This document shows, piece after piece, positions 22,378 through 39,332 of a stretch of 64,000 nt of DNA. The notes beneath the pieces are model-generated. The model had not been told where the DNA came from. It worked only from the letters and a program-made list of their open reading frames with translations, and searched no databases. The DNA is from Thermodesulfovibrionales bacterium (GTDB taxonomy: Bacteria > Nitrospirota > Thermodesulfovibrionia > Thermodesulfovibrionales > SM23-35). How positions within the stretch are numbered: the first letter of the stretch is position 1; every line of letters begins with the position of its first letter. The position numbers were made by a program, and so were the translations under genes. The DNA lies in assembly GCA_031082155.1 (NCBI GenBank), contig JAVHLL010000004.1, positions 1 through 64,000 of the forward strand, read 5' to 3'.

Positions 22378-22917
22378 ATGAACAGGAAAACTATACCCGG
22401 GTATTGTATCGTTCTGGTCCTCTCGTTTCTCCTCCATGCACTGAGTCCTGCAAAAATGTATATCCACCTGATGCTTCCTGTTTTTCTGCTGCTCTATCCG
22501 ATCATCACGGGCTACAGGGTAAAGATCAGCTTTTCTCCGAAGAATATCGTGTTCGGGCTTGCCGTAACACTGGCCATTCTTGTTCCTTATGGAATTGCCT
22601 TCAGGGCACGGATAACTGACCTTGCTCCTTATTTTATAGCGTTCCAGTTTATCAGCGTTGCGTTCCCTGAAGAATTTTTCTTCAGGGGGTTCATTCAGGA
22701 CTCGCTGGGGAAGAATTACAAATCTGTCGTTCTCGCAAGCCTCTTGTTTGCGCTTGCCCATCTCCCGAAGACGGTATTCGGTGGCGACTGGATTGTGCTC
22801 CTCAGTTTTTTCCCCTCACTGGTTATGGGATGGCTTTACCTGAAGACAAACAATATACTGCCCGGGGTCATATTTCACTGGCTTGCGAATCTGATACAAC
22901 AATCGACACCCGGTTAA
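22378..22917 (+). CDS. CPBP-family (glutamic-type) intramembrane protease; candidate sorting protease
   Basis: 179 residues, almost entirely hydrophobic, with about five or six membrane helices. Motif 1 is PEEFFFRG (E98, E99, R103), motif 2 FALAHLP (H128) and motif 3 FHWLAN (H167), the glutamic-type active site of the CAAX/CPBP family (ABI). Short CPBP proteins of this kind include the processing enzymes of C-terminal sorting signals (myxosortase and the JDVT-CTERM protease). It converges on a T2SS/subtilase operon, 173 bp away, whose subtilase has a matching C-terminal tail. The sorting role is inference; a bacteriocin-immunity or unrelated role is possible. Confidence 0.8.
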   Translation: MNRKTIPGYCIVLVLSFLLHALSPAKMYIHLMLPVFLLLYPIITGYRVKISFSPKNIVFGLAVTLAILVPYGIAFRARITDLAPYFIAFQFISVAFPEEFFFRGFIQDSLGKNYKSVVLASLLFALAHLPKTVFGGDWIVLLSFFPSLVMGWLYLKTNNILPGVIFHWLANLIQQSTPG

Positions 22918-23089: not shown

Positions 23090-25393
23090 CTAATTACGAA
23101 ACAGCTTATTCGACCCTTTCCTTCTCAGAAGATACACAATGATGAGTGGAAGAACCAGCAGAAGGGTATCTGCTATCGCTGTCTGATAGGAACCAGTCCC
23201 CCCGATTGCACACCCGCCGCCGCCTCCTCCATTGCCGGAGGAAGATTTCTGCGTTGTTGCCTGTGCCTCATTCGAATACGCTGAATAACCGGCTGCGTTA
23301 TACGCGCGCACGCGATAGAAGTAAGTTGTAGACGGACTCAATCCGGTGTCACCGTAACTTAAACTGTTCATTCCTGTCTGTGCTATTTCTCCAAATATTC
23401 CGCTCTCTCCCGTCTTTCTCTCTATGCTGAATCCGGTTTCAGAGGAGACTTCCGTCCAGGCAAGATCGATGCGGCTTGATGAAACAGCAGTTGCTGCAAG
23501 ATTTGATGGGGCAGCCGGGGCCATGCCTCTTAACGCTGCAAAGGCATTCAGCCTCCCCCCTGAAACTGAAGTCCCGGTAAGGAAAAGCTTCTTATCCACG
23601 TTGTTAAGGAGAATGTTTTTTACATCCGAGAATGCGAATGAAGGATTCGCAGATAAGACCAGTCCTGCTGCGCCACTCACATACGGAGCAGCAAGAGAGG
23701 TGCCGCTCCATGCCTGCGATGCATATGAATAGTTGCCTATACTCAGCGGTTGCCTCTGCACAGTAACGTCATCAATATACACACCTTCCTGATGAAGGAC
23801 CCCGTCTGATTGCAGACCGAAACCGACAGAGAATCTGTCATAGAGATCGCCTGCTTCCGTGATTAAGTCAGTAGAAATCGGAACAAAATTACCTCCTGTA
23901 TTTCCGTCTGTCCAGGCAACGGTTTCCCAGAATTTGCCGTCTGGAGAGTAATTAAACTGGAAATAATCAAGGCTAAATGAATCAATGTGCCCTTTCCAGA
24001 CACAGGACAAAACATAACGGTTATTTTTCACGGATGGCAGAAAGGTCAGATAGCCCGCCCAGGAATGTGTATTTGGCAGATAGGTTCCTCCCGGACTGTC
24101 TTCAAGGCTGTTTGTTCCGTTCACCCCGGTGCCCGCTGTTACCGCCCATGATGCGTTCACTCCACCCTGGGCCCATCCAAGCAGTGGAAGCAGCCCTGAT
24201 GCACTGTCAAAGTTCTCACTGTAAACAGTAACCGGCGCACCCGGTAAAATAACAGGGACCGTGCTGTAGATCACCACTCCGGGGGCAGCCAGATCAACAG
24301 ATGTTGCTCCATAGTTCGAAAAATACGCGAGGTTGTCCATGCTGTCGGAAGCAGCAACTGATATGATATTGTCGAGGGTAAATCCTGAAGGATAGAATGG
24401 AGAGAAATCATTGTTCTGAGCCTCATTCCCGGCAGCGGCAACAAAGAGCACCCCTTTGGATCGTGCATAGCTGATAGCATTATAGAGAGTATTTGAGTAA
24501 TCGTAACCACCCCAGCTTGCATTGATAATCCGTGCTCCATTGTCGGCAGCATAGATAATTGCCCTGGCTGCATTCCCCACATCACCTGACCCGCTCACCC
24601 CTAAAAAGCGGAGGGCCATGATTCCGGCTGACCACATAACACCGGATCCGCCAGCCCCATTATTGCCCTGTGACGCAATAATACCCGCGACATGAGTTCC
24701 GTGCGAGTCCAGGTCCTCAGGATACCCGTCATTATCAATGAAATCCCATCCATTCACATCATCGACATATCCGTTCCCGTCGTCATCTATGCCATTCGCC
24801 GGAATTTCTTTCGTATTCCGCCAGACATTTGCTGTAAGGTCCGGATGGCCATATGCCACTCCTGTATCGATTACAGCGATGAGAATAGCGTTTGACCCGG
24901 TGGTGATGTCCCACGCTTCCGGAGCATCGATATCTGCATCAATGCTCCCGCCGGTCTGTCCGGTATTGGAGAGCCCCCACTCCTGAGTGAATCCGGGGTC
25001 ATTTGGGATGACCGCCTTTCGCACAATATAATTTGGTTCTGCATATTCAACATCGGCATTCGATCGATAGGAGGCAAGCGTCTCTTGAAGGTCCATGGCA
25101 TCTGACAAGAAAATCCGTTGCACTCCGATCTGCTTTAGTTCCCTGACAGTTGCCGCACCCATTGCGTAATTAAGCGTATTTATTGTGTGACTTGGAGTTC
25201 CTGTTTTGAATTTCACAAGAATTTCTCCGGGAAGATACCGGGGCAACTGTAACACCATCCCGCCGGGGGGACCTCCCTGTGTATGTACAGCGACAGAGTC
25301 AGAATTCGTTGTGTTTTGAGTGATCCGGGGTTGTCCTTCAGCGCCGCACCCTGCAAGAGCCAGCACAAGAATCATACAAATGAAATATCTCAT
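23090..25393 (-). CDS. Lipoprotein subtilase (S8) with inserted beta domain, Fn3 and C-terminal sorting tail
   Basis: 767 residues. Lipobox LAGC (C16); I9-type prodomain about 54-123, opening GEILVKFKTG and ending VEYAEPNYI; catalytic S8 domain with D176 (AVIDTG), H231 (SHGTHVAG), oxyanion N323 and S566 (GTSLAAP). A beta-rich block of about 170-180 residues (381-560) is inserted between N323 and S566. One Fn3 domain (about 627-715) leads to a tail with GGGGGGC (C728)-AIGG, a membrane helix (741-756) and RRK. The gene starts 10 bp after gspN with a strong AGGAGG, so it is the last gene of the T2SS operon and a probable T2SS substrate. Confidence 0.9.
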   Translation of the reverse strand: MRYFICMILVLALAGCGAEGQPRITQNTTNSDSVAVHTQGGPPGGMVLQLPRYLPGEILVKFKTGTPSHTINTLNYAMGAATVRELKQIGVQRIFLSDAMDLQETLASYRSNADVEYAEPNYIVRKAVIPNDPGFTQEWGLSNTGQTGGSIDADIDAPEAWDITTGSNAILIAVIDTGVAYGHPDLTANVWRNTKEIPANGIDDDGNGYVDDVNGWDFIDNDGYPEDLDSHGTHVAGIIASQGNNGAGGSGVMWSAGIMALRFLGVSGSGDVGNAARAIIYAADNGARIINASWGGYDYSNTLYNAISYARSKGVLFVAAAGNEAQNNDFSPFYPSGFTLDNIISVAASDSMDNLAYFSNYGATSVDLAAPGVVIYSTVPVILPGAPVTVYSENFDSASGLLPLLGWAQGGVNASWAVTAGTGVNGTNSLEDSPGGTYLPNTHSWAGYLTFLPSVKNNRYVLSCVWKGHIDSFSLDYFQFNYSPDGKFWETVAWTDGNTGGNFVPISTDLITEAGDLYDRFSVGFGLQSDGVLHQEGVYIDDVTVQRQPLSIGNYSYASQAWSGTSLAAPYVSGAAGLVLSANPSFAFSDVKNILLNNVDKKLFLTGTSVSGGRLNAFAALRGMAPAAPSNLAATAVSSSRIDLAWTEVSSETGFSIERKTGESGIFGEIAQTGMNSLSYGDTGLSPSTTYFYRVRAYNAAGYSAYSNEAQATTQKSSSGNGGGGGGCAIGGTGSYQTAIADTLLLVLPLIIVYLLRRKGSNKLFRN

Positions 25394-25403
25394 AGTAACC
25401 TCC

Positions 25404-26183
25404 TCATAGGTGAAGGTTACCCTTCACCGGTATTACAAAATAACCGGGAGAAACTTTATATTGCTCAAGTTCCGCGAGCAGAAAGGGATTTTCCGCAAAT
25501 GACCTGCCCGGCATGATTTCCATGGCAAGATCCATCACAGCGTTCTGAATTTTGCCCTTGAGTCTCGCGAACACTTCTTCTCCCTCGAATGAAACTGACA
25601 GGATATGTATCGTATCACCTTGTATGTCGAGCGCTCCTGTAATAGCTCGAAACATATTCAAGGGCACCCTTCTTCCCGAATAGGTCGCAGGTTCAAACCG
25701 GGCGTCCCTGGAAACAAACTCAACATGACCTTCTGCATCGGTTATTGCTACTGTTCCGGACAGGGTGCCTTTTCCTGTTAATCCGATTCTTTTCAGAAAC
25801 ACTATCTCGCTGATACCGACTTTGTTCAGAGAAAAATCCATCTCCTGCCTGTCCTTCGTAAATTTCATTTTGCCGGAAATAGTCCCTCCGTATACCTCTC
25901 CGTCGATCACCCCGCGCAGACTGGAGAGGAAGAGACTGGCCGGGTGAATACGGAGGGAGATATTATGCAAAGAAATCAGTTCATGGCTGTTCCGCCTCAG
26001 GACAGCTGTATCAACATATATAGTATACAACAACCCTTTCTTCAGCCCATGCAATTCAATGTCAATTCTGTGTGCCGAGAAGGAATCTTCGATAATGGCC
26101 TGCAGCGTGTTGGGAGAGAAAACAAACCATGGTCCGAAGATAATCAGGACCAGCGCACATATGAGGATGAGGAAAATCTTCAC
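25404..26183 (-). CDS. gspN: Type II secretion protein GspN
   Basis: 259 residues: an N-terminal membrane helix (IFLILICALVLIIFGPWFVF), then a periplasmic beta-rich domain with AsmA-like repeats (HNISLRIHPASLF, IDGEVYGGTISGKM). It fits the GspN family of non-enterobacterial T2SS loci. It overlaps gspM by 4 bp. Identification rests on weak motifs plus position at the end of gspC-M. Confidence 0.75.
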   Translation of the reverse strand: MKIFLILICALVLIIFGPWFVFSPNTLQAIIEDSFSAHRIDIELHGLKKGLLYTIYVDTAVLRRNSHELISLHNISLRIHPASLFLSSLRGVIDGEVYGGTISGKMKFTKDRQEMDFSLNKVGISEIVFLKRIGLTGKGTLSGTVAITDAEGHVEFVSRDARFEPATYSGRRVPLNMFRAITGALDIQGDTIHILSVSFEGEEVFARLKGKIQNAVMDLAMEIMPGRSFAENPFLLAELEQYKVSPGYFVIPVKGNLHL

Positions 26184-26683
26184 TTTGTCTTTAAGAAGGA
26201 GAGGACAAGGGAGATATTCATCAGTTCGGGATTCTCAAAAGACTTCTTTATGGTAACCTTTTTCATGGTAAGGACCATGGGCGCATTCTCGATTCTGTAA
26301 AGGATATTCACCGTCTCGTTCATATTCACTTTCTCTATAGTGAGATCGGCATCCTCTTCAAATCCGTCCCTGATCTCTTTCTTTCCTGTGGATTTCAGAG
26401 TTTTTATCTTGTCTTTCAAGCCCATGGACAGAAAGACTTCATCGACTGCCTGGACAATGCCCTGAGGGCCGGACCGGCCCTTCCTGCCTTCCACGGAATC
26501 TATTTTCTGTTTCAGCGAGATGTATTCATCTTGCAGCAGGAGCAGTTCGTTCCGTTGTCCTTTGAGCATGGCAAGTTCTTTTTTTGATGATGAGAGCTGA
26601 TACATTCCGGATAGGAAGAGAAAAAAAACAATGATCAGACCGACAAAAAAAACAACGGCCCCCCTGTTTTTTAAAAACGTCAT
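26180..26683 (-). CDS. gspM: Type II secretion protein GspM
   Basis: 167 residues: one N-terminal membrane helix (about 11-29), a coiled-coil stretch and a ferredoxin-like periplasmic domain. Inner-membrane platform partner of GspL. It touches gspL (1-bp overlap) and gspN (4-bp overlap). Sequence is divergent, as usual for this family; order in the operon decides the call. Confidence 0.78.
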   Translation of the reverse strand: MTFLKNRGAVVFFVGLIIVFFLFLSGMYQLSSSKKELAMLKGQRNELLLLQDEYISLKQKIDSVEGRKGRSGPQGIVQAVDEVFLSMGLKDKIKTLKSTGKKEIRDGFEEDADLTIEKVNMNETVNILYRIENAPMVLTMKKVTIKKSFENPELMNISLVLSFLKTK

Positions 26684-27747
26684 CAGGATTTCCTCTCCCT
26701 AGCTGTTATGGTGAATAGCATCCTGTCCTGTGCAGAAGACTTCGAGTCTGATATGGCGACCCCTTCGAAAAGACCATCCAGGCTGTCCTTCATCTTCTGC
26801 ACGTCACTCAGCGTCGGCGCTTCGCCCTTCAGAATCATGTTCTCCCTGTCAATGGTTATCTCATGAAACACCACGCCCTGCCTGTCAGTATCCGATATCC
26901 TGAGGATGGTTGCAAGAGGGCTGATCCCTAAGTAGAGTCCCTCATCGGTTTTCAGTTCTTTCATATGGGACTTCATCTGATGGAGCTCGTTGATGATATT
27001 TTTTTCTCCGGGGAACGCTTCCTGATATTTTTTTCTCATATCATTCTTTACTGCTGCAATTTCTGAGCGGACAGAGAGAATATTCAGCAGTATACCTGCC
27101 GCAAACATAAGCGCGATGAATATCGCGAGAAGCGCAGTCCACCTGAGCGACCTCTTTGTCTTATCGATTTCACGGGTATATGCAAATTCGTCCCTGCGGA
27201 GGTTGACGGTCGGAGTGTTCATCTCTTCAATCGCAAGAGATACCCTTTCCTGCGCCTCCAACTGCACAGGAGCGAGAAGTTTTTCCGACGAAAACCCCCG
27301 GATCACTTTGCTCAGCTCAAGCGATGTTACGCAGAAAGGGTCTGCATTGTATGTTTTCAGTTTTCTGAGGAGGTCTCCGATAGTCTGTTTCCCGGCATAC
27401 ACTGCAAGCACCTGAGTTGCGTTCCCGGAATTATTGAGCGGAACGCCATCAAACACTACCTTCTCAGATCCTCCGAGGATGATAGTGTCAAGTTCGAAGG
27501 GAAGGACATTCCGGACCTTGTCTTTCTGCACAAACGGGAGGTCTACGACCCTGAAATTGAGGCTGCTCAGAGGAAGGCTTACATAGGTATTCTCTATAGA
27601 ACCCGGAACGGGATCGAGGGAAAAATCCAGGTTGCCGGATAGGGGATATGTTTTCCGCTCCCTGAGAGTATAGGCTCCTCTTCCGGAATCGAAAATATAG
27701 GTTTCGACTTCTGAGTCCCTGATATCAATAAAGAGTACTGTCGCCAT
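26683..27747 (-). CDS. gspL: Type II secretion protein GspL
   Basis: 354 residues. An actin-like, PilM-related cytoplasmic domain (about 1-195, with VSLPLSSLNFRVVDLPF), a single membrane helix (about 208-228), then a PilN-like periplasmic ferredoxin domain. It links the GspE ATPase to the membrane platform. Overlaps gspK and gspM by 1 bp each. Confidence 0.85.
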   Translation of the reverse strand: MATVLFIDIRDSEVETYIFDSGRGAYTLRERKTYPLSGNLDFSLDPVPGSIENTYVSLPLSSLNFRVVDLPFVQKDKVRNVLPFELDTIILGGSEKVVFDGVPLNNSGNATQVLAVYAGKQTIGDLLRKLKTYNADPFCVTSLELSKVIRGFSSEKLLAPVQLEAQERVSLAIEEMNTPTVNLRRDEFAYTREIDKTKRSLRWTALLAIFIALMFAAGILLNILSVRSEIAAVKNDMRKKYQEAFPGEKNIINELHQMKSHMKELKTDEGLYLGISPLATILRISDTDRQGVVFHEITIDRENMILKGEAPTLSDVQKMKDSLDGLFEGVAISDSKSSAQDRMLFTITARERKS

Positions 27748-28664
27748 TAATATTCCTTCCAGTACTCAATTCTGTTTTTCGTAGTATTCAATACCATGTC
27801 AATAATTCTTTTCACACCACCTGATGTAGCAGTAGAAGTTATAGAAAAGTATTGTCCTTCTGCAGTCAAAAAAACCCCTGATTCAGTTGCAAATCCGTTC
27901 ACAATACCTTGAAGCTGTCCTACAATTTGCCATGGTTCACCATTAAAAGGGCTAAGATTCCGGTGATTAATTATTCTCTCTGCATCCTGCTCTTTCACCG
28001 AATCTGCTACGCTCCTGATAACGGGAATACCTGCTCTATTAATATTAACATAGAGCATTCCCTTTGACCCGCACACGGTAATATAAGGGACTAACGTATC
28101 ATAATCTTGTTTGGTAATCCCACGCATTAAGAGAAGTTCGTCAGTACTATCCAAAAAAGTATTTTTCGCCCCAATTTCTCCCCCTGAGATTTTCACCTCA
28201 CTATTTTCATCGATCCAGTCAACGATTCTGTCTGCTATCCTCTCATCGAGTGAGAGCACACTGAGAAGCCTCTTCAGTGCATTGTATGCTCCCATATTCA
28301 CAGCCCGATCACCACCTTCACGAACAAGAGAGTTAAGATTGAATTTGGCAGTTTCGTCCTCTACACTGATTTTTATATTCCCCTGAAAGTCCTTAAAAGG
28401 ATTTTCAACAGGCATCTCAATATGATTCTGTGTCTTATACTCTGTTGCGTTCGCAATATCTTTAAGCATCCTGGCAGTCACATTCACGCCTGATTTTGCC
28501 ATAAGAGAGAGGCGCTGTGCATCCCGCCAGTTATAGAGATTGTTCGTACCTATATAGACGCCATAGGAGAATTCCACTACCATTGCGGTCAAGAGAACAA
28601 TGACAAGCAGCGTTATGACCAATGCCATACCGTGCTCATTCTTTACTAATACTAAGTTTCTCAT
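27747..28664 (-). CDS. gspK: Type II secretion minor pseudopilin GspK
   Basis: 305 residues. Prepilin leader of 12 residues, cleavage G12/M13 (HGMALVITLLVIVLL), with no Glu at position 5, as is usual for GspK, which caps the pseudopilus tip. The long helical insertion with GspK-type segments (DERIADRIVDWIDEN, LLLMRGITKQDYD) is present. Confidence 0.9.
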   Translation of the reverse strand: MRNLVLVKNEHGMALVITLLVIVLLTAMVVEFSYGVYIGTNNLYNWRDAQRLSLMAKSGVNVTARMLKDIANATEYKTQNHIEMPVENPFKDFQGNIKISVEDETAKFNLNSLVREGGDRAVNMGAYNALKRLLSVLSLDERIADRIVDWIDENSEVKISGGEIGAKNTFLDSTDELLLMRGITKQDYDTLVPYITVCGSKGMLYVNINRAGIPVIRSVADSVKEQDAERIINHRNLSPFNGEPWQIVGQLQGIVNGFATESGVFLTAEGQYFSITSTATSGGVKRIIDMVLNTTKNRIEYWKEY

Positions 28665-28673
28665 AAGGGGTAT

Positions 28674-29336
28674 CTATACCTGATTTCCTATCCTCGGCTT
28701 TGCGATATCATTGAGCGTAATCGTGTGCCCTTGAATGTTCATGGTCATGCCTATCCTCAGTTCCTCGGGTTTTGCTTTATTTATTGCTGCATCCCAGGTC
28801 CTTACCCAGGTATCATTATATTTTGCTTCGACGGCAAAACCTTCAAGATCTTCTATAATGTCAATGCCCTCTGATTCTTCCCTGCCGTACGGCGATTCCA
28901 CCTTTTTGAAGAGACTCAGTTTTCCCTCTTTCTCCTCAACATAATATGAAATCTTCGAAAGCCCGGGGCGTAACGTAGAGAACGCAGTGAAATCAAGCTG
29001 CGTAGTCTGCTTGCCGTAGACATCCCTGTCCTCAATTCTGAACAAAGTAGCTGCGTCCTGTTCATTCTGATAGGCCGATTCAAGTTCACACCTGAGGATG
29101 TCGATAGCCCTTCTTGCCTCCTGAAGTTTTGTCAAAGATTCATCCATTCCTTCCATGGCCCTGTAGCTCATGAAAAATGTGCTGTAGAGTGCGGCAAGAA
29201 TGACAGAGAGGATTGACACTGCGATAAGCACCTCCAGGAGCGTAAAACCGGCTTCTCTCCGGGATGGAGGAAATCCGGACTTATTCTCCCCTGCGAAATG
29301 GGAGAGGGGATATATCTTATTGAATAACAAACTCAT
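28674..29336 (-). CDS. gspJ: Type II secretion minor pseudopilin GspJ with an unusually long leader
   Basis: 220 residues. The prepilin site is G30/F31 (EAGFTLLEVLIAVSIL), so the leader is 30 residues instead of the usual 5-15. The extra leader is encoded by repeat-like DNA (CTCCCCTG...GGGAGAGG). AGGTG precedes the ATG and no internal ATG is available. It overlaps gspI by 20 bp. Tip-complex partner of GspI and GspK. Confidence 0.85.
   Translation of the reverse strand: MSLLFNKIYPLSHFAGENKSGFPPSRREAGFTLLEVLIAVSILSVILAALYSTFFMSYRAMEGMDESLTKLQEARRAIDILRCELESAYQNEQDAATLFRIEDRDVYGKQTTQLDFTAFSTLRPGLSKISYYVEEKEGKLSLFKKVESPYGREESEGIDIIEDLEGFAVEAKYNDTWVRTWDAAINKAKPEELRIGMTMNIQGHTITLNDIAKPRIGNQV
29255..29310. 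repeat. Repeat-like G/C-tract block encoding the gspJ leader
   Basis: TCTCTCCGGGATGGAGG followed after about 15 bp by TTCTCCCCTGCGAAATGGGA and GAGGGG, a pair of short inverted C/G tracts. It lies exactly where the prepilin leader is expanded. Confidence 0.45.
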
Positions 29337-29649
29337 TCAGTTTCACCTCTTCACTCCCTGCTTTTACCACAACGATAATTTCTGAAACCCCGATATACGG
29401 TGAAGCATTCACAAAAGTCTCGAAGGAGTAATGCTCATGGGGAGCATCAAACTCTCCCTTGCTGCTGGCAGGATCTTTTTCGAGATCCGCCATCTTGCTC
29501 TTGGCGAGCAGGGTTGCGACCGTAATAGTCTCCTGCCTCTCGATGAGTCCCAACTGGTAGTTCACTGAATAGATGAGGGTGATAAGCAGGCTGCTGAGTA
29601 TAGCCAGTACAATCAGGACCTCGAGAAGCGTAAAGCCTTTATCCTTCAT
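29317..29649 (-). CDS. gspI: Type II secretion minor pseudopilin GspI
   Basis: 110 residues. Short leader MKDKG, then FTLLEVLIVLAILSSLLITL with Glu at +5. The GspI-type body (LLAKSKMADLE) follows. It overlaps gspH by 11 bp and gspJ by 20 bp. Confidence 0.9.
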   Translation of the reverse strand: MKDKGFTLLEVLIVLAILSSLLITLIYSVNYQLGLIERQETITVATLLAKSKMADLEKDPASSKGEFDAPHEHYSFETFVNASPYIGVSEIIVVVKAGSEEVKLNEFVIQ

Positions 29650-30136
29650 CCTGCGTCTCTATTTTCACCCTGCCGCTCAGATGGTTCAGTGTGATTTTCA
29701 TGTGGCTGTCTCCCCGCTTCATGTAAACAACGAGATTCTCCCGGGCTCCGAGAGGTTCAAAGAAAAGAGTCAGTTCACCACTTGACACAAGACCTCTCGA
29801 TTGTATCTCGACACCGGTAAGACCATCAAAAGACCGTGTTTTATTCCCTCCGGGTTCACTCCAGACAACCATGTTTTTCCCAAGATCGAATTTAAGAAAG
29901 AACGTCTCTTTTCTCGACACCGCATTGTCATTCACGTATCTCAGGATTGAGGCCATCTCCCGTGCTTCGGCCTTAAGCCTGCTCTCTCCGAAACCGGAGA
30001 AGGTCGGCAAAACAATCGCAAGGACCAGAGACAGGACGAAGAGTACGACAATCAGCTCGATAAGCGAAAACCCGGTGCTATTGGATGTCCCAGTTCTTGA
30101 TCTCCGCATCTTTCCCTTCACCGCCCTCTTTCCCAT
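29639..30136 (-). CDS. gspH: Type II secretion minor pseudopilin GspH
   Basis: 165 residues. Prepilin site G22/F23 (STGFSLIELIVVLFVLSL) with Glu at +5. Two starts have ribosome sites: ATG 30136 (GGAG) and ATG 30109 (AAGGGA), the latter giving a 12-residue leader. Both lie inside the end of gspG, so translation is coupled. Body typical of GspH (ASILRYVNDNAVSRKE). Confidence 0.88.
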   Translation of the reverse strand: MGKRAVKGKMRRSRTGTSNSTGFSLIELIVVLFVLSLVLAIVLPTFSGFGESRLKAEAREMASILRYVNDNAVSRKETFFLKFDLGKNMVVWSEPGGNKTRSFDGLTGVEIQSRGLVSSGELTLFFEPLGARENLVVYMKRGDSHMKITLNHLSGRVKIETQDEG

Positions 30137-30509
30137 CTGCTCCGTAGCTCAAGATATCAAAGTCTCCATAGATACCGGGTGAGATATAAACATAGGGATT
30201 GTTCCAGGGGTCAAGCGGGATTTTTCTCTGTTCAAGATAACCACCATCACGGTATTTATGGGGTATTTGCCCGACAGTGGGCTTCTCGATAAGTGAGTCA
30301 AGCCCCTGTTCCGTAGCCGGATAAAATCCGTTGTCGAGCTTGAAGAGTTTCAGTGCAGTCTCAAAATTCCTTATCTGAACCTTTGCCTCTGCAATCCGTG
30401 CATCATCGGTCCGCCCTATGATCTTCGGCGCCACAATCGCCACAAGGAGACTGAGGATGAAGACCACTACAATGATTTCAAGCAGGGTAAAGCCTTTCTT
30501 GTTCTTCAT
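30078..30509 (-). CDS. gspG: Type II secretion major pseudopilin GspG
   Basis: 143 residues. Leader MKNKKG, then FTLLEIIVVVFILSLLVAIV. The family hallmarks GFYPATEQGLDSL, PLDPWNNPYVYISPG and YGADGKEGGEGKDAEI (calcium-binding loop) are present, so this is the major pseudopilin that forms the T2SS piston. The gap to gspF holds a dispersed repeat. Confidence 0.95.
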   Translation of the reverse strand: MKNKKGFTLLEIIVVVFILSLLVAIVAPKIIGRTDDARIAEAKVQIRNFETALKLFKLDNGFYPATEQGLDSLIEKPTVGQIPHKYRDGGYLEQRKIPLDPWNNPYVYISPGIYGDFDILSYGADGKEGGEGKDAEIKNWDIQ

Positions 30510-30531
30510 GATTCCTCCGTTCTGTGGTATT

Positions 30532-30598
30532 TGTCATGCCGGCTTGTCCGGCATCTTTCTTCAAAACAAGAAGGATTCCCGACAAGCGGGAATGATGA
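30532..30598. repeat. Dispersed palindromic repeat, copy 2
   Basis: Starts TGTCATGCCGGCTTGTCCGG and ends CCCGACAAGCGGGAATGATG, between gspF and gspG within the T2SS operon. Confidence 0.8.
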
Positions 30599-30661
30599 CT
30601 GTTCTATTCTCTTATGTGCTACGGTAAAACAAATTGGCAAATTTTTGTTCATTGATTTTTC

Positions 30662-31837
30662 TCATTTTATCAACTGGTTTAACTGGAATATCGGCAGAAG
30701 GACTGCGAGGACGATGAGTCCCACCAGAAAGCCCATGCAGAGAATCATCACCGGTTCAAGGAGTGAAAGGGCTTTGTCCACCCTGCGGGAAAACTCTTCC
30801 TCGTAGGAACGCGCGGCATTTTTCAGAACCTCTACCAGTTGTCCGCTCCTCTCCCCAGTCGAAATCAATTGGAGAAGCACCGGGGGAAAGCCAGCGAGCG
30901 ATGCAGAAAGCCGCGCACCCTCCGACACCCTTTTCCCGGATTCCAGAACGTTCATCTCGATCACTTTATTCCCGATAGACTTTGCAGAAAGTTCGAGAGA
31001 ATTCAGCATAGGGAGCCCCCCCTCAAGAAGGAACCCCAATGTCCGGGCGAAACGCCCGAAGTAAAGACTCTGGAGGATATTCCCGGGAATGCGCAATAAC
31101 ATCCTGTCGAGGAATACGCGTTTTTTCTCCCTCATTTTTCTAAGCAAATACAAGCCGCCGAGCAGGAATCCCATAAGGAGCCACCAGTAGCGCTGAAAAA
31201 TCTCACTCACCCAGATAAGGACCACGGTAAGCAAGGGGAGGGCACTCTGGGTGTCTTTATATATTCTGGTAATTTTCGGCATCACAAAGGCGAAAAGAAA
31301 AGAGAGCACGATAAAACTTATGCAGATCATGAAAACAGGGTAGACCATCGATGTCCTTACTTTGGATTTCAGGCTGTCCTGAGCCTCCAGAAAATCAGCA
31401 ATGCGGATGAGAATATTGTCCAGATTTCCACTTGCCTCTCCGGCGGCAACCATATTGATATAGAATTCGGGAAATATTTTCGGATACTCTTCCAGCGCCT
31501 TTGAGAAACCCGATCCGGCAGCAATCCGTTCTCTTATGCCCACCAGCATGGTTTTCCAGGAACCTTTCTGTTCGTCGGAAAGAGACCGGAGTGCCTCAAG
31601 AAGCGGAACGCCGGAGGAGATAAGTGTTGACAGTTGACGTGTCACAGAGGGGAGGAGGGTTACGTCGTGCCGGTTGAACAGAGAGAACCATCTTTTCTCT
31701 GAAGCCCCTGCTACGTTCCTTGGATAGAGTCCGGACTCTTTAAGCCTGAGCGCTGCCTCCTTCTGGCTTGCTGCCTCGATCGTGCCCGCGACCTCCGAAC
31801 CGTCAGGTCTGTATCCCTTATATTGAAATATCGGCAT
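30662..31837 (-). CDS. gspF: Type II secretion inner-membrane platform protein GspF
   Basis: 391 residues. Two T2SSF domains (about 60-185 and 265-385), each with the conserved helical core, and three membrane helices. It anchors the pseudopilus assembly platform. It overlaps gspE by 20 bp. Length is close to the usual 400. Confidence 0.95.
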   Translation of the reverse strand: MPIFQYKGYRPDGSEVAGTIEAASQKEAALRLKESGLYPRNVAGASEKRWFSLFNRHDVTLLPSVTRQLSTLISSGVPLLEALRSLSDEQKGSWKTMLVGIRERIAAGSGFSKALEEYPKIFPEFYINMVAAGEASGNLDNILIRIADFLEAQDSLKSKVRTSMVYPVFMICISFIVLSFLFAFVMPKITRIYKDTQSALPLLTVVLIWVSEIFQRYWWLLMGFLLGGLYLLRKMREKKRVFLDRMLLRIPGNILQSLYFGRFARTLGFLLEGGLPMLNSLELSAKSIGNKVIEMNVLESGKRVSEGARLSASLAGFPPVLLQLISTGERSGQLVEVLKNAARSYEEEFSRRVDKALSLLEPVMILCMGFLVGLIVLAVLLPIFQLNQLIK

Positions 31838-33383
31838 AATCCTTCTGTGTTACCCGCAGAACCTCTTCAAGGGTTGTTATCCCCTGAATCACCTTCTCAA
31901 GTCCATCCTGCCGAAGTGTTTTCATGCCCTGCGAAACCGCCTGGTTCTTTATTCTCTGAGAATCCATCCGTTCGGTGATCATAGGCCGTATCTCATTGCT
32001 GATCTCGAGCAGTTCGAAAATGCCCAGCCTCCCGATATATCCCTTTCCCTTGCATTTGTCACATCCTTTGCCCTTGAAAAGAAGAAGCGTGCCACCCTCC
32101 CCCCTTGAGGGGGAGTGAGGGGTGGGGGGTGCATGCATCTGCATGAAATACGATTTCTCGACTTCAGAAGGCTCATAGGCGATCTTGCACTGCGGACAGA
32201 TCGTCCGTACCAGCCTTTGCGCCAACACAAGGGCCAATGACGAAGCAACGAGGAAGGGCTCGATTCCCATGTCTATGAGCCTCACCAATGCACTCGGTGC
32301 ATCATTTGTATGAAGGGTACTGAGAACGAGATGTCCTGTAAGCGATGCCTGCATGGCTATTTCGGCCGTCTCCAGGTCTCTTATTTCGCCGATCATAATG
32401 ACGTCGGGGTCCTGTCTCAGAATAGACCTGAGCCCTGAGGCAAAGGTAAGCCGTATTTTAGGGTTCACCTGCACCTGTCCGACACCTTTCAGCTGATATT
32501 CGATCGGGTCCTCAACCGTGATAATATTCTTTTCTTCTGTATGAATCCTGTTGAGCGCAGCGTACAGGGTCGTCGTTTTTCCGCTCCCGGTGGGACCGGT
32601 AACCAGGATGATCCCATCCGGTCTCCTCAGATGGTCCTCCATCTTCTTTTCGTCATCCCTGTTAAATCCGACCTCCCAGAGACCCAGCAGGCCCTGCTTT
32701 CTGTCAAGGAGCCGCAAGACCGCTCTCTCCCCATGTGAAGTGGGTATGACCGACACCCTGATATCGATATCCCTTCCCCCGAGAAGAAGCCGTATCCTTC
32801 CATCCTGCGGGAGCCGCTTTTCAGCGATATCGAGGTTCGACATGATCTTGATTCTGCTGATTAACGCGTCCTGAATGATTTTCGGCGGGGTCAAAACCCT
32901 GTGCAGTACCCCGTCTATTCTCAATCTCACATCAAGTTCTTTCTCATACGGCTCGATGTGGATATCACTTGCTCTCTCTTTTACCGCCTGGAGAAGGAGA
33001 GCGTTGAGGAGACGGATTATAGGAGCCTCCTCGGTCAGTTCGAGCAGATCTTTCGGGGCTTCGAATTCAGTCGCAACAGAGGAAAGGTCCTCTCCGGTTA
33101 TGGTATCCATAACCTCCTCTGCCGAACCCAACTGCCCGTAAAACCTGTTGATTGCATCGAGGATGACCCCTGAACCTGCCTTGAAGGGTCTGGGCTTTAA
33201 TCCCAATGTTTTAGCGACTTCCGAAAGTGCCAGCACCCCCCTGTCGTCTGCAACGGCGCCTGAAAGTTCTTCGCCATTCCGACTGAACGGGAATATCTGG
33301 TTGTTCTTCACGAAGCTGAGAGGAATATTCTTGAGAAGGGAAATTTCTACATCCTCATCCTTTATAACATCGATCGTTTCCAT
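31818..33383 (-). CDS. gspE: Type II secretion ATPase GspE with a repeat-encoded loop
   Basis: 521 residues. Hexameric cytoplasmic ATPase powering pseudopilus assembly. N1 domain about 1-120; Walker A GPTGSGKTTT (about 260-270); Asp box and Walker B (PDVIMIGEIRD); a zinc-binding C4 motif made of CPQC and CDKC. The loop between the two cysteine pairs has an extra stretch (residues about 413-431, PPTPHSPSRGEGG) encoded by a G/C-tract repeat. The enzyme core is intact. Confidence 0.95.
   Translation of the reverse strand: METIDVIKDEDVEISLLKNIPLSFVKNNQIFPFSRNGEELSGAVADDRGVLALSEVAKTLGLKPRPFKAGSGVILDAINRFYGQLGSAEEVMDTITGEDLSSVATEFEAPKDLLELTEEAPIIRLLNALLLQAVKERASDIHIEPYEKELDVRLRIDGVLHRVLTPPKIIQDALISRIKIMSNLDIAEKRLPQDGRIRLLLGGRDIDIRVSVIPTSHGERAVLRLLDRKQGLLGLWEVGFNRDDEKKMEDHLRRPDGIILVTGPTGSGKTTTLYAALNRIHTEEKNIITVEDPIEYQLKGVGQVQVNPKIRLTFASGLRSILRQDPDVIMIGEIRDLETAEIAMQASLTGHLVLSTLHTNDAPSALVRLIDMGIEPFLVASSLALVLAQRLVRTICPQCKIAYEPSEVEKSYFMQMHAPPTPHSPSRGEGGTLLLFKGKGCDKCKGKGYIGRLGIFELLEISNEIRPMITERMDSQRIKNQAVSQGMKTLRQDGLEKVIQGITTLEEVLRVTQKDYADISI
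32093..32131. repeat. G/C-tract inverted repeat inserted in gspE
   Basis: CACCCTCCCCCCTTGAGGGG followed by GAGTGAGGGGTGGGGGGTG: C tracts and G tracts in near-mirror order. It encodes the HAPPTPHSPSRGEGG loop between the two zinc cysteine pairs. Confidence 0.75.
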
Positions 33384-33389
33384 CTGTAT

Positions 33390-33617
33390 TCATTGTATCT
33401 TCATAATATAATTGGGTTCTGCATATTCCACTTCCTGACAGGCAGTGAAAATCTTGACCGCATCTTTCACATCCTGGTTTTTTTTCAACTCTATCCGGTA
33501 GAGCCCTTTCGGTTGTAACGGGGACAGGATAGCAGCGCCTTCCCGAGAAAGTATCTCCATTATTCTCTCTTCTGAAGTCTCTCCCCTGAATTTCACGAGC
33601 AACTCGCCCTCTTTGTA
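33390..33617 (-). other. Subtilase I9-like prodomain module at the GspD C-terminus
   Basis: The last 75 codons of gspD. The start (YKEGELLVKFRG) and end (VEYAEPNYI) match residues 52-63 and 115-123 of the 37-kb subtilase and the equivalent part of the 23-kb subtilase. The middle also fits the fold spacing (KDAVKIFT against KDAVMQYM). The protein stops 4 residues after YI, exactly where the catalytic domain would begin in the proteases. PilQ, the other secretin here, lacks it. Confidence 0.85.
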
Positions 33618-35708
33618 CCTTTCCTCCATCCTTGCAAATTGCAACTGTTTTTCACCGGTCAGTTTTTCAAGCTGATCGGGTTCTCTCACAATATGGGGTG
33701 TTAAAAATATGAGCAGGTTTGTCTTCTTTTTTTCCATAGATTTATTCTTGAACAACCAGCCCAGGAGGGGGATGTCGCCCAAGAGAGGTATTTTATTCAC
33801 TGTTTCTTCCTCCCGCTCTTCCATGAGCCCCCCTATTACAACTGTCTGGTTATCCTTGACAAGAACAGACGTTTTTGTCGAACGTTTCGTTGTGCTCGGT
33901 CCCACGGTAAGCACCACCGTGGTCGATTCCTGCTTCAGGGCTGATATCTCCTCATAGATATCGAGTTTCACATGGTTCCCTTCGGTAATCTGCGGAGTGA
34001 TCCTCAGGGTAATTCCGACGTCTTTTCTTTCAATCGAGGTAAAAACTGATTGCGGTCGCGCGGGGTCCGATTCTTTCTGAGCTATGAACGGGACATTTTC
34101 CCCCACAATGATTTCCGCTTCCTTGTTGTCTGAAGTCAGGATCTGTGGGGTGGAAAGGACATTTACTGCGTCCTTGAATTCGTTCAGGCTGAAAAGTGCA
34201 GCAAATCCCGGGACTGTGAGTATCGAGGTCACAACTGATCCGTCCGAACCGGTTGTCGTAATCGGAACATCAAGAAAGTTTCCCATGCCACCGGCTGTCA
34301 TTCCGGTGAGTCCGTAGAGAATACCCTGCATTGAGGTAGAGTCGATCTGGCCGAACCCTCCGACCGCTACCGGTTCTCCGTTCTTCTCGGCGATGATCCG
34401 CCACTTGGACCCGAGTTCCTGCAATCTGTCTATTGATGCTTCAACGATCATCGCCTCCACGTATACCTGCCTTCTCTTCTTGTCAAGCTGCCTTATTACC
34501 TGGACAAGGTTCTGATAATCTGCAGGAGAGGCGACAATGACGAGAGAGTTGGTCGCCTTGTCCGGAGAAATAATGAGCCTTCCTCCCGGTTCAAAGGGGC
34601 TTTTCTGGGCCTGCCCCTGCTGTCCCGCCTGCCCTGCCCTTGCCTGTGCAGAAATCCCTGTAATCATCGTATCAAGGACCTTGGAGAGTTCTGTTGCGTC
34701 TGCGTATTCAAGGAAATAGACGTTGATCTTGCTTGTTGCATCGGGAAGCGGGATATCGAGGAGGGATATGATCCTCTTTATGGCCTCTTTTTCCTGCTTA
34801 TCCGCGATAAGTATAATGGCATTCAGGCGGGTATCTGCAAAAACCGACGATTTGGATTCTTCGACAGACGCTGCCGGCACCGGTTCACCCGGCCTCAGCC
34901 CGCGCATCGCGGAGGGTTGCCCTTTGCTGCTCAGAACCAGTGTCTCGGTGAGGATCTTCACAACATCATCCGCATTTGCATACTTCAGCAGGATAATTTC
35001 CGCTTCCTCTATGCCCGGTTTGTCTATCACTTCAAGGATCTCCAGTATCCGCTGGATATTCATTGCAGAGTCCACAACCATAAGCATATTTCCAGGGCCG
35101 AAAGAAGAGATATGTCCGTCCCTTGAGACAAGGGGTTGGAGGAAATTCATCGCCTTTGTAGATGATATCGCCCTCAGTTGTATAAGCCTTGTGATATACG
35201 CGTCGCCCACCGGCACAACCTCTTCTTTCTGGAGCTCGGCCCCAGTCTGCTTTGCCTGAGTAGTCGGCAGGATCTTATACACTTTCCCTGACGGGATGAT
35301 GGTGAATCCCTTCAGTTCCAGTACTGAGGTGAAGAGATGGAATGCGTCCTCCACAGAAAGTCTGGACGGAGCAATGATGGTTATTGTACCTTTTACTCTC
35401 TCATCGAATACAAAGTTTTTGCCTGTTACTTCACTGATAAACTTCACAACAACCGGTATGTCCACATCAACAAAATTAAAAGCGACTTTTTTCTCCCTGC
35501 CTTTTTGTTTTCCAGTCTGTTTTAGTTCCTGCTGAGGATTATCCCCTGGTTGTGCTGTGGTGACAGGCTGATCCTCTTGAACAGTAATATCGGTCGGGTT
35601 TTCTTCAGCGAAGAGACATTCATGGATGAGGATAGATGAGACAAAAAATCCAATTAACATCAGCATAGCGAAGACATTAATAATGTCTGATGATCGTTGT
35701 TTATTCAT
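33390..35708 (-). CDS. gspD: Type II secretion secretin GspD with a C-terminal subtilase-prodomain module
   Basis: 772 residues. Signal peptide about 1-35; N0 domain about 75-145; N1-N3 about 168-410; secretin barrel domain about 410-672 (VPFIAQK, VIGGLMEE, IPLLGDIPLLGWLF, LLIFLTPHIV). Where a pilotin-binding S domain is usual, residues 698-772 instead form a module starting GELLVKFRG and ending VEYAEPNYI, matching the prodomains of the two subtilases at this locus. It forms the outer-membrane channel of the T2SS. GAGAGGAA precedes the ATG. Confidence 0.95.
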   Translation of the reverse strand: MNKQRSSDIINVFAMLMLIGFFVSSILIHECLFAEENPTDITVQEDQPVTTAQPGDNPQQELKQTGKQKGREKKVAFNFVDVDIPVVVKFISEVTGKNFVFDERVKGTITIIAPSRLSVEDAFHLFTSVLELKGFTIIPSGKVYKILPTTQAKQTGAELQKEEVVPVGDAYITRLIQLRAISSTKAMNFLQPLVSRDGHISSFGPGNMLMVVDSAMNIQRILEILEVIDKPGIEEAEIILLKYANADDVVKILTETLVLSSKGQPSAMRGLRPGEPVPAASVEESKSSVFADTRLNAIILIADKQEKEAIKRIISLLDIPLPDATSKINVYFLEYADATELSKVLDTMITGISAQARAGQAGQQGQAQKSPFEPGGRLIISPDKATNSLVIVASPADYQNLVQVIRQLDKKRRQVYVEAMIVEASIDRLQELGSKWRIIAEKNGEPVAVGGFGQIDSTSMQGILYGLTGMTAGGMGNFLDVPITTTGSDGSVVTSILTVPGFAALFSLNEFKDAVNVLSTPQILTSDNKEAEIIVGENVPFIAQKESDPARPQSVFTSIERKDVGITLRITPQITEGNHVKLDIYEEISALKQESTTVVLTVGPSTTKRSTKTSVLVKDNQTVVIGGLMEEREEETVNKIPLLGDIPLLGWLFKNKSMEKKKTNLLIFLTPHIVREPDQLEKLTGEKQLQFARMEERYKEGELLVKFRGETSEERIMEILSREGAAILSPLQPKGLYRIELKKNQDVKDAVKIFTACQEVEYAEPNYIMKIQ

Positions 35709-36016: not shown

Positions 36017-36892
36017 TTACTTTATCTGATACGTCATAGTCATCCGTGCACCCGACCGGATCATGTCAATCTGCACCCTGTCGAGACCTCTCAGCGCATT
36101 AAATGCCTGCAGCGCTCTTTCAGGATTCGAAATATCATATTCATTTATCCGGAGTAGTACATCACTGTCCTGAAGGCCCAGGCTGTGGTATATCCCCCCC
36201 GGTTTCACCTCACTTAGGACAAACCCTTCCTCCTTGCCGTTTGCAACGTTTGGTTTCAGCCGTGCGTCAGTCATCATCTGGCCCGGATTGGCGATTGCGT
36301 GCTGGAGTTTATTCTGATCAACGATGTATAAACCCGTCCCCACCCTCTGGGCAAATGCGGAAAGTTGTGGACTGCCTGCAATGCCTGGTTTGCTGATCTC
36401 TTTTATTTTGACATCATCGAGGGGGATTTCTATTTCTTTTCCGCTCTGTCTGAGCATGACCTTTTCTTTCTCTACACGAGAGAGTTTCCCGACGCCAAAG
36501 ACCTGTTCGCCGATTTTAAATACTTCCTGAATTCCCGTTTTGTCTCTAAAAACCCCGAAACTCAGTTCCTTCGGTCCCACTACCGTACCAATAAGTGCAA
36601 TATCAGATGACTGCGACTGGCTTGTTGCAGAACCAGTCAACAGTTTCAGTTCTCCTCCGGCAAATCCAAAAGGATTGTTTGTGAGAATCCCGGAGTACTC
36701 TATAAATTGCGTCTTTTTCGCACCCGCTTCTTTATCGGCCGGCAAAGTGGATCCCGTCCTTATGGTCTTTCCCTGTCCAAAATACAATGTCATCGCATCC
36801 CTCGCGAGAAAAAATACCGCAAAAAGGAGGAGGATGCTGAGGATGACATTCAGGAAAAAAATATTTCTCTTTATAAGAAGTCCGGTAATCAA
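36017..36892 (-). CDS. gspC: Type II secretion protein GspC with PDZ-like domain
   Basis: 291 residues from a TTG start with AGGA at proper spacing. Membrane helix about 10-30; homology-region domain about 95-165 (IALIGTVVGPKELSFGVF) that contacts the secretin N0 domain; C-terminal PDZ domain about 205-291 (PGGIYHSLGLQDSDVLLRIN) for substrate or partner contact. First gene of the T2SS run. A TATAAT lies on this strand about 75 bp upstream (36967-36972). Confidence 0.88.
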   Translation of the reverse strand: MITGLLIKRNIFFLNVILSILLLFAVFFLARDAMTLYFGQGKTIRTGSTLPADKEAGAKKTQFIEYSGILTNNPFGFAGGELKLLTGSATSQSQSSDIALIGTVVGPKELSFGVFRDKTGIQEVFKIGEQVFGVGKLSRVEKEKVMLRQSGKEIEIPLDDVKIKEISKPGIAGSPQLSAFAQRVGTGLYIVDQNKLQHAIANPGQMMTDARLKPNVANGKEEGFVLSEVKPGGIYHSLGLQDSDVLLRINEYDISNPERALQAFNALRGLDRVQIDMIRSGARMTMTYQIK

Positions 36893-37229: not shown

Positions 37230-39332
37230 TTAACTCCTCCGTCTTATGAGTGCGAGTACGATTGCAGGCATCAGCAGCATCAGGAGATCTGCAAATGCTG
37301 TCGGTGTATTCTGCGGCCCTCCGACAGAACATCCTCCGCTTCCGCCGTGCTCCTTCGTGTTCCCACCTGAAGTAAGCGTGGTCCCTGAAATTTCATTGGA
37401 ATATGCAGAGTATCCCGCAACCGGATTAAATGCTCTCACCCTGTACCAGTATGTTGTTGCCGGACTGAGTCCCGTATCGGTGAATGTTGAGGTGTTCTGT
37501 GCCACCTGACCTACCTGAGCAAAATCAGTGTTCGATGTACGCCTTTCGATCAAATAGTTCTGTTCAGTCAACGAATTGTCCGACCAGGCAAGTTGGATCT
37601 GAGTGCTCGATGCACTTACCACCCGCAGGTTTGTCGGCGGATTGAGGGGGGTAAAAGCAGTCGCTTCAGTCCCTTGCTGCACAGGCGATTCACCGATATC
37701 ATTATACGCCCTCACCCTGTAATAATATCTCGTCCCGTCTATGAGGCCTGCATCCGAGTAAAACGATCCATTCACACCGATTGCGGCTATCTGCAGATAA
37801 GAAATCCCGTCCGTTCCTCTATAAATCCTGTAGCCGATTTCGTCCGTAGCCCGGTCAGTCCATGCCAGATCCATCTGTAATGAAGATACAGGCGTCGCAG
37901 TAAGATCATATGTCGCCCATAGTGATTTCAGGGCTCTGTCTGCGTTGATCCTTCCGCCAGTGAGTATCCAGCCGTTCATCGTGGGTAGCACATCGACATA
38001 TCTCAGTATCATTGTCCGGATTTGGCTGTGGGTAAAATGAGCATAATAAGCGCTTACAAGGCCAGCGAGTCCTGTAACATGCGGAGCTGCCATAGACGTG
38101 CCATCGAACATCTCAAAATGGCCATATCCATAATACATCGTCCACCAGTTTGGGACTGTACTGAAAATATAGGTCCCTGGTGCAGCCACGTCAACAGATG
38201 TCGGGCCGAAATTGCTGAATGAGACCCTTCTGTCATCCTGGTCAGTCGCTGCGACAGAAATGATATTTGGCAAGTTATAGCTTGCAGGATACATTGGCAT
38301 TACATCATTGTTGTCCCCGACTCCGTCACCCCCGCCGTTCCCTGCAGAAGCTACAAAGAGGATTCCCGCCACATTTGCCCGGTCTATAGCCTGATATTCA
38401 GAGGTCGAAAAATTACCGCCGCCGAAGCTGGCATTCATGGCTCTTACATTCACCCCATGGTTATTTTTCATGGTAATAGCATAATCGATGGCTGCGATTT
38501 CAGCCCCGACATCACAGGAACCATTCACGTCGCATACCTTTAACGCCATCATGTTTGTCAGCCACATAACGCCCGCAATGCCTGTACTGTTATTCCCTTT
38601 GGCCCCGATGACTCCTGCCACGTGCGTCCCGTGTCCATAGTCATCCATTGGATCATTATTATTATCGATAAAGTTCCATCCTGTACAGTCGTTCAGGTAT
38701 CCATTTCCGTCATTATCAACAGCATCGGTACAACTCATCTCGCCCAGATTCCTCCATATGTTCCAGACAAGGTCATTGTGGCCGTAATCAATTCCTGTAT
38801 CAAGCACCGCAATAGTTATGTCACCGCTGCCGATGGTGACATCCCATCCTGCCGCCATTTTGATATCGGCTCCTGCTGTCCCATATGCATATTGTCCGGT
38901 GTTCCAGAAAGACCACTGGTTTGCGAAATAGGTGTCATTCGGGATTATTGTTTCTGTCTTCCTTATATAGTTCGGCTCTGCATATTCAACATTCTGGTTT
39001 GCCATATACTGCATGACTGCATCTTTTACAGAAAGTCCCTTGGGGAGTTTAACGTGCTCAAGCGTCGGGATGATTGTATATTTCCTGACCACAGAGGCGC
39101 CGACTGTCTTATGCACAGCGGAAGACGATGCAGCTTTGACCCCTGATTTGAATTTCACAAGCAGTTCCCCATCTTTGTACTGGCCGCCATTCTCGATCTC
39201 TGCAAGAATGGACTGCGCAGAGAGCTTAATGCTGCCTGAGGACCCTGAAGTATCTGAAGAGATATTCGTGGAAGACTGGCTGCCGCAGGCGACAAGAAAC
39301 ACGCATATTATCAAATATAAATATTTCCTCAT
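37230..39332 (-). CDS. Lipoprotein subtilase (S8) with two Fn3 domains and C-terminal sorting tail
   Basis: 700 residues. Lipobox LVAC (C16); I9-type prodomain about 52-123 (GELLVKFKSG to VEYAEPNYI); S8 catalytic domain with D178 (AVLDTG), H234 (GHGTHVAG), N332 and S413 (GTSMAAP), without the insertion found in the 23-kb paralogue; two Fn3 domains (about 473-560 and 565-654); tail GGSGGC (C668)-SVGG, membrane helix about 679-696, RRRS. The tail and prodomain match the 23-kb subtilase. Its own terminator and the terminator upstream make it a single-gene unit. Likely exported by the neighbouring T2SS (inference). Confidence 0.92.
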   Translation of the reverse strand: MRKYLYLIICVFLVACGSQSSTNISSDTSGSSGSIKLSAQSILAEIENGGQYKDGELLVKFKSGVKAASSSAVHKTVGASVVRKYTIIPTLEHVKLPKGLSVKDAVMQYMANQNVEYAEPNYIRKTETIIPNDTYFANQWSFWNTGQYAYGTAGADIKMAAGWDVTIGSGDITIAVLDTGIDYGHNDLVWNIWRNLGEMSCTDAVDNDGNGYLNDCTGWNFIDNNNDPMDDYGHGTHVAGVIGAKGNNSTGIAGVMWLTNMMALKVCDVNGSCDVGAEIAAIDYAITMKNNHGVNVRAMNASFGGGNFSTSEYQAIDRANVAGILFVASAGNGGGDGVGDNNDVMPMYPASYNLPNIISVAATDQDDRRVSFSNFGPTSVDVAAPGTYIFSTVPNWWTMYYGYGHFEMFDGTSMAAPHVTGLAGLVSAYYAHFTHSQIRTMILRYVDVLPTMNGWILTGGRINADRALKSLWATYDLTATPVSSLQMDLAWTDRATDEIGYRIYRGTDGISYLQIAAIGVNGSFYSDAGLIDGTRYYYRVRAYNDIGESPVQQGTEATAFTPLNPPTNLRVVSASSTQIQLAWSDNSLTEQNYLIERRTSNTDFAQVGQVAQNTSTFTDTGLSPATTYWYRVRAFNPVAGYSAYSNEISGTTLTSGGNTKEHGGSGGCSVGGPQNTPTAFADLLMLLMPAIVLALIRRRS

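Follow-up and report, generated by a model that had tools for sequence, protein, structure and literature searches.

The window, i.e., the whole 64,000-nucleotide stretch of DNA analysed here, harbors a cluster of gsp genes which is predicted to specify a type II secretion system (T2SS) and which is flanked by two genes encoding S8 subtilases, here termed S8a and S8b. The features on which the analysis draws are as follows:

22378 to 22917, plus strand: Myxosortase/MrtS-like CPBP intramembrane protease (PF02517, E value of 2.7e-21; NF040914 Mrt_core, 70.7 bits, and NF040589 MrtS, 75.4 bits, both below cut-off)
23090 to 25393, minus strand: S8a subtilase, with a PF22148 prodomain, Peptidase_S8, fn3 and a GGC-type sorting tag
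23093 to 23230, minus strand: GGC-type sorting tag of S8a
25013 to 25237, minus strand: PF22148 prodomain of S8a (residues 52 to 121)
25404 to 33383, minus strand: gspN-like, gspM, L, K, J, I, H, G, F and E, open reading frames between gspD and S8a (letters assigned from gene order and motifs)
33390 to 35708, minus strand: gspD, T2SS secretin of 772 amino acids, comprising N0, Secretin_N repeats, the Secretin domain and then the tail (PF21305, PF03958, PF00263, PF22148)
33390 to 33392, minus strand: stop codon of gspD
33393 to 33617, minus strand: C-terminal PF22148 prodomain-like module of GspD (residues 698 to 772, Y698 to Q772; defined by profile, AF2 model and Foldseek)
36017 to 36892, minus strand: gspC with a PDZ domain (PF11356; NF041515, 142 bits, just below the cut-off of 150)
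37230 to 39332, minus strand: S8b subtilase, with a signal, a PF22148 prodomain, Peptidase_S8, fn3 and a GGC-type C-terminal sorting tag
37233 to 37346, minus strand: GGC-type sorting tag of S8b
38955 to 39179, minus strand: PF22148 prodomain of S8b (residues 46 to 121)

The gsp genes and both subtilase genes are co-directional, with S8a starting 10 bp past the last gsp gene, and the gsp gene order is common to relatives, as determined by phmmer. The catalytic motifs are present in both subtilases (DTGV/HGTH/GTSLA in S8a and DTGI/HGTH/GTSMA in S8b), and flanking S8 genes recur in the genomes G003, G006, G010, G012, G014, G015 and G018. In the source genome and its family, the flanking subtilases end in a GGC-type tripartite sorting tag, for which the CPBP protease encoded next to S8a is a candidate processor; together, protease and tagged subtilases probably represent a new variant of the CTERM sorting pair. 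The JDVT-CTERM model scored 18 bits on S8b, below its cut-off of 27. MYXO-CTERM proteins are thought to be lipidated and to become surface bound through the T2SS (PMC11980579), and by analogy with these proteins the flanking subtilases are likely T2SS clients. The source genome encodes a third S8 protein (G000:C23:9870-10613, locus L188), which does not carry a PF22148 prodomain. Two in-frame low-complexity inserts, TPLNPPLAKGGRRGG in chorismate synthase (21384 to 21428, within the aroC-like open reading frame at 21039 to 22277) and TPHSPSRGEGG in GspE (32091 to 32123), look like intragenic palindromic repeat insertions.

The assignment of GspD as a T2SS secretin is based on its match to TIGR02517 across residues 77 to 684 (E value of 1e-167; 559 bits against an equivalog cut-off of 351) and on the gspC to gspN genes which surround it. 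Beyond the secretin domain, a profile search of the full-length protein detected PF22148 at residues 689 to 766 with 49.8 bits (E value of 4.6e-13; gathering cut-off, 21 bits), while the excised tail with a short linker scored 53.4 bits (E value of 3.4e-14). Only three copies of PF22148 are present in the whole genome (2.65 Mb), and all of these are located in the gsp/subtilase cluster, i.e., in GspD and in the two subtilases. The GspD copy is not N-terminal to an S8 catalytic domain, as the chain ends six residues past N766. The original prediction that the secretin ends in a subtilase prodomain, resembling those of both flanking subtilases and stopping where a catalytic domain would start, is thus upheld by the profile match, the fold model and conservation, by the presence of PF22148 in all three proteins, and by an end point which coincides with the residue matching the prodomain cleavage site. 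The family to which it had been ascribed requires correction, since the prodomain belongs to PF22148 (Fervidolysin_NPro-like) rather than PF05922. When the tail was compared with plasmid records by tblastn, 15 records were retrieved, and among the matches listed 10 of 10 were annotated S8 peptidases. No description of a GspD with a propeptide or I9-type domain was found in the open-access literature searched.

Structural prediction agreed with the profile search. The AF2 model of the module displayed pLDDT values of 91 to 95 across the domain, and Foldseek comparison with the PDB identified the subtilisin BPN' prosegment (1spb_P) as the top match, followed by other pro-subtilisins. Matches to 1spb_P, 1r6v (fervidolysin) and 1scj_B were obtained with a probability of 1.00 and with E values of 3e-3 or weaker, modest values of this kind being expected for a small domain. 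Further matches included the furin-bound PC1/3 prodomain (TM score of 0.84 by target) and, lower, ORF2 (3wqb); RRM-like folds were also among the matches, and prosubtilisins were found, weakly, by profile at the sequence level. The module has its family, predicted fold, cap residues and C-terminal strand in common with the fervidolysin-type prodomain (PF22148; 1R6V) and the broader S8/I9 propeptide fold (1SPB), from which it differs in being secretin borne, in having no catalytic domain after it and in forming its own subfamily marked by Y737 and E759.

Subtilase propeptides employ a Glu and an Asp/Asn residue to cap two helices of the catalytic domain, these being Glu69 and Asp71 in BPN' and Glu146 and Asn148 in the free inhibitor SUB1-ProM (PMC6993865), and their C-terminus occupies the active-site cleft in a product-like manner (PMC10580911). 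The corresponding segment of GspD, defined by alignment with 1SPB, conservation and PMC6993865, is as follows:

33393 to 33419, minus strand: E764-P-N766-Y-IMKIQ772 of GspD, comprising the helix-cap pair E764/N766 and the C-terminal strand to the P1-equivalent Q772

In the alignment, E764 and N766 are the equivalents of BPN' Glu69 and Asp71. Across 81 tails, E764 is conserved in 93%, P765 in 96% and Y767 in 94%, and position 766 is N in 79% and D in 11% (N/D in 90%). Six residues separate N766 from the C-terminus, which is the commonest spacing across the tails and also that between D71 and P1 Tyr77 of BPN'; the P1-equivalent residue of GspD tails is Q or K. At the level of sequence, the GspD tail thus possesses both the cap pair and the cleft-type C-terminus of a trans-acting propeptide inhibitor. 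The tail is extended beyond this usual end in some lineages, one of them with a SPOR domain: in the GspD at L139:1239-3734 and in similar proteins of G254, G330 and G376, a long linker connects the prodomain-like tail to a downstream SPOR domain. In L151 and L152 (G369 and G275), an insertion of approximately 30 residues with two cysteines precedes the second helix of the tail.

The present GspD resembles PulD, EpsD and ExeD (TIGR02517) in its N0, Secretin_N repeats, Secretin domain and gspCDEFGHIJKLM(N) cluster, whereas those proteins have an S domain at the end where the present GspD has PF22148. In known GspD proteins, the terminal S domain either binds a pilotin or is flexible (PMC6532946), and the tail had originally been noted to occupy the position of the pilotin-binding type. 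Its location after the secretin domain agrees with this; however, neither pilotin family was detected above cut-off in 61 genomes (PF16549, 0/61; PF09691, 0/61), while the Escherichia coli control was positive for both. A canonical S domain with a known pilotin was consequently rejected, given the absence of PulS/OutS and AspS pilotins, and replacement of the S domain is to be understood as a matter of position only. The GspD proteins of Desulfobulbus-type loci (L092, L097 and L115) seem, by eye, to end in TPR-like repeats.

These observations introduce a strong rival explanation, namely, a purely structural recycling of the fold, whereby a prodomain-derived module would now serve secretin biogenesis (targeting, multimer stability or lipoprotein binding) in the place of the S domain and would not bind subtilases, which we regard as a real, if somewhat doubtful, possibility. 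It is favored by the S-domain position of the module, by the other domains that GspD proteins append there (SPOR after the tail in L139 and TPR-like repeats in the Desulfobulbus-type loci) and by Y737 and E759, which are conserved in tails and not in S8 prodomains. The absence of known pilotins argues against it, as does the approximately 90% conservation of E764 and N766, which are docking residues in subtilases.

Among 101 genomes of Thermodesulfovibrionales (Nitrospirota), an orthologous GspD (E value below 1e-100) was present in 63, of which 60 carry the tail; the three tail-less proteins (G031, G086 and G087) indicate that the tail is dispensable for a secretin of this family, which is a further argument against structural recycling. 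The tail is also present in other orders of the class, while the rest of the phylum mostly matches the secretin part alone. Of the 395 genomes from the phylum to which G406 (labelled Desulfobacteraceae) belongs, 2 possess it, suggesting sporadic transfer. The original prediction was correct in its observation of the tail and missed its conservation throughout the class. A chance match or an assembly artefact was rejected on the basis of the profile score, purifying selection and the recovery of the tail, in open frames, from dozens of independent assemblies; on the same evidence, these two explanations and that of a recent private fusion have a practically negligible probability. In a FastTree phylogeny, 43 of 43 S8 prodomains split from 85 of 86 tails and free-standing relatives, with a support of 0.41 for the separating branch. 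In this phylogeny, at that branch support, the tail domain is of one main origin and constitutes an ancient subfamily apart from the neighboring S8 prodomains; a recent copy of a neighboring prodomain is not supported, the tails forming their own subfamily (branch support only 0.41). The GspD module is a real, old and selected domain whose propeptide docking surface looks intact, and it is the product of neither chance nor a local fusion.

S8 proteases were found in 45 of 60 tail-bearing genomes as opposed to 10 of 38 GspD-less genomes (P value of 3e-6), an association which is not assignable to the tail rather than to the T2SS because the two are nearly coextensive. No S8 match at an E value of 1e-10 or lower was obtained in 15 of the 60 tail-bearing genomes, or in 13 of 54 at a completeness of at least 90%, and a permissive search in 14 of the 15 returned fragments or sub-threshold matches only. 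Conversely, the three genomes with a tail-less GspD all have S8. In G008, both flanking subtilase genes are gone while the gsp cluster is intact and the tail complete, the contig extending past both ends of the cluster. Relaxed selection was looked for by dN/dS on the tails of S8-less lineages and was not seen; the ratio is approximately 0.2 in S8-less pairs also, indicative of purifying selection. Tails in genomes without S8 proteases had been named at the outset as evidence against a subtilase partner, and this applies in part, i.e., to the 13 of 54 genomes. The suggestion that the tail captures or gates a subtilase retains the indirect support of the cap residues, the P1-type end and the S8-adjacent relatives, while an exclusive role of this kind is weakened by those 13 genomes and by G008.

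As lineages that lost S8 keep the tail, the module probably has a second, S8-independent role, in secretin assembly or stability, and its retention under purifying selection in S8-less genomes is also what structural recycling would entail. In family f4, the cap Glu is absent in six genomes, four of which are S8-less (Fisher P value of 0.044; counted by eye from tail sequences). In the four S8-less genomes, this position is occupied by Lys or Arg, a substitution which is what the loss of a partner would lead to and which likewise favors structural recycling; however, the two S8-bearing f4 relatives also have no Glu. As all cases come from this one family, the tracking of S8 loss by cap-Glu loss is only suggestive. 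Retention of the tail where no S8 gene resides would also be explained if it inhibited or bound another envelope target, such as a protease of a different class or a subtilase of foreign or predator origin, instead of the S8 clients of the cell. We consider this improbable, given that the selectivity of known propeptides for the cognate enzyme can be high, as for pernisine (PMC10580911), and that the loci examined yielded no candidate target.

A further line of evidence was provided by family f29 (probably Nitrospira), in which the tail subfamily occurs as a free-standing reading frame of 131 to 167 amino acids with a lipobox-like signal (by eye), an S8 gene being located directly downstream of each of the 13 copies examined. 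The f29 products at L179 to L183 and L208 to L212 are predicted lipoproteins with PF22148 only, mostly ending in AEPNYxYxxxK and with an apparent overlap with the S8 gene, while the S8 partners of the f29 domains carry their own prodomain and a GGC-type tag. The f29 lipoproteins and the GspD tails form one subfamily in the FastTree phylogeny, and Y737 and E759 are present in most free-standing relatives. As the domain is a separate protein in one lineage and part of the secretin in another, a link is established between secretin, domain and subtilase. The pairing of lipoprotein and S8 genes supports a trans-acting propeptide role, and the position of these closest free-standing relatives beside S8 genes, with no secretin attached, stands against structural recycling. 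The retained cap residues, the end at a P1-equivalent residue and these S8-adjacent relatives indirectly support the competence of the GspD tail to dock onto a subtilase.

Trans-acting propeptide folds have precedents in SUB1-ProM, TgMIC5, POIA1 and YIB2, the first of which has an E/N cap pair; unlike the GspD tail, these are free standing and not fused to an export channel. The ORF2 chaperone/inhibitor (3WQB) of the Aeromonas sobria serine protease (ASP), whose carboxyl-terminal Lys lies at the catalytic center (PMC5638518), shares the propeptide-like fold according to Foldseek. ORF2 is, however, a separate, free polypeptide required for ASP maturation, whereas the GspD module is tethered and its candidate clients have their own prodomains.

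We tentatively propose, at slightly less than an even chance, that the secretin carries, in the form of the GspD tail, a fused subtilase propeptide which acts in trans and whose most likely action would be to bind exported subtilases at their catalytic face, from the periplasmic side of the channel. The tail would sit on the periplasmic side of the outer membrane channel, at the S-domain position of solved secretins, and up to 15 copies may dock via their sheet face on the catalytic domain of T2SS-exported, lipid-tagged subtilases, with the free C-terminus placed in the active-site cleft like that of a cleaved propeptide. A processed or prodomain-stripped protease would thereby be kept inactive next to the envelope machinery until exported. 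In its fullest form, the proposal is rather unlikely: the secretin would be a tethered propeptide for the proteases which it exports, with up to 15 copies arranged in a ring that captures autoprocessed subtilases on the periplasmic side by active-site docking and releases them during export. If true, the T2SS channel would be exit and safety catch at once. Counting against a trans-acting propeptide, both flanking subtilases keep their own prodomain, and neither is known to need the tail for folding.

It has long been an open question how the T2SS recognizes clients that are already folded, and how cells withstand the proteases that they export. A secretin which, throughout a class, bears a domain known to partner with the catalytic face of a client protease connects channel and cargo directly and in a testable way. 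Exported proteases may be kept in check by the channel, although the domain persists in several genomes that lost these proteases. The lipoprotein carriers, together with the anti-sigma-like carriers described below, suggest that subtilase propeptides are used more widely, in a so far undescribed manner, as regulators anchored in the envelope.

Among the three genomes with a tail-less GspD, a free-standing domain that might compensate was found in G031 only, where a secreted PF22148 protein (L177:529-960) is encoded just upstream of a giant subtilase; this protein groups with the S8 prodomains. In a Thermodesulfovibrio-like lineage without GspD, genes for an ECF sigma factor and an anti-sigma-like membrane protein lie in the co-directional gene run of the S8 protein, the order in L202 being ECF sigma gene, anti-sigma-like gene and then S8 subtilase. 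The anti-sigma-like proteins (L202:1956-8932, L203:2283-11720, L204:3602-4213 and L205:2477-3109) are single-pass membrane proteins with a C-terminal, weakly PF22148-like extracytoplasmic domain, which scored above cut-off in L205 only, and they may constitute a protease-sensing sigma switch.
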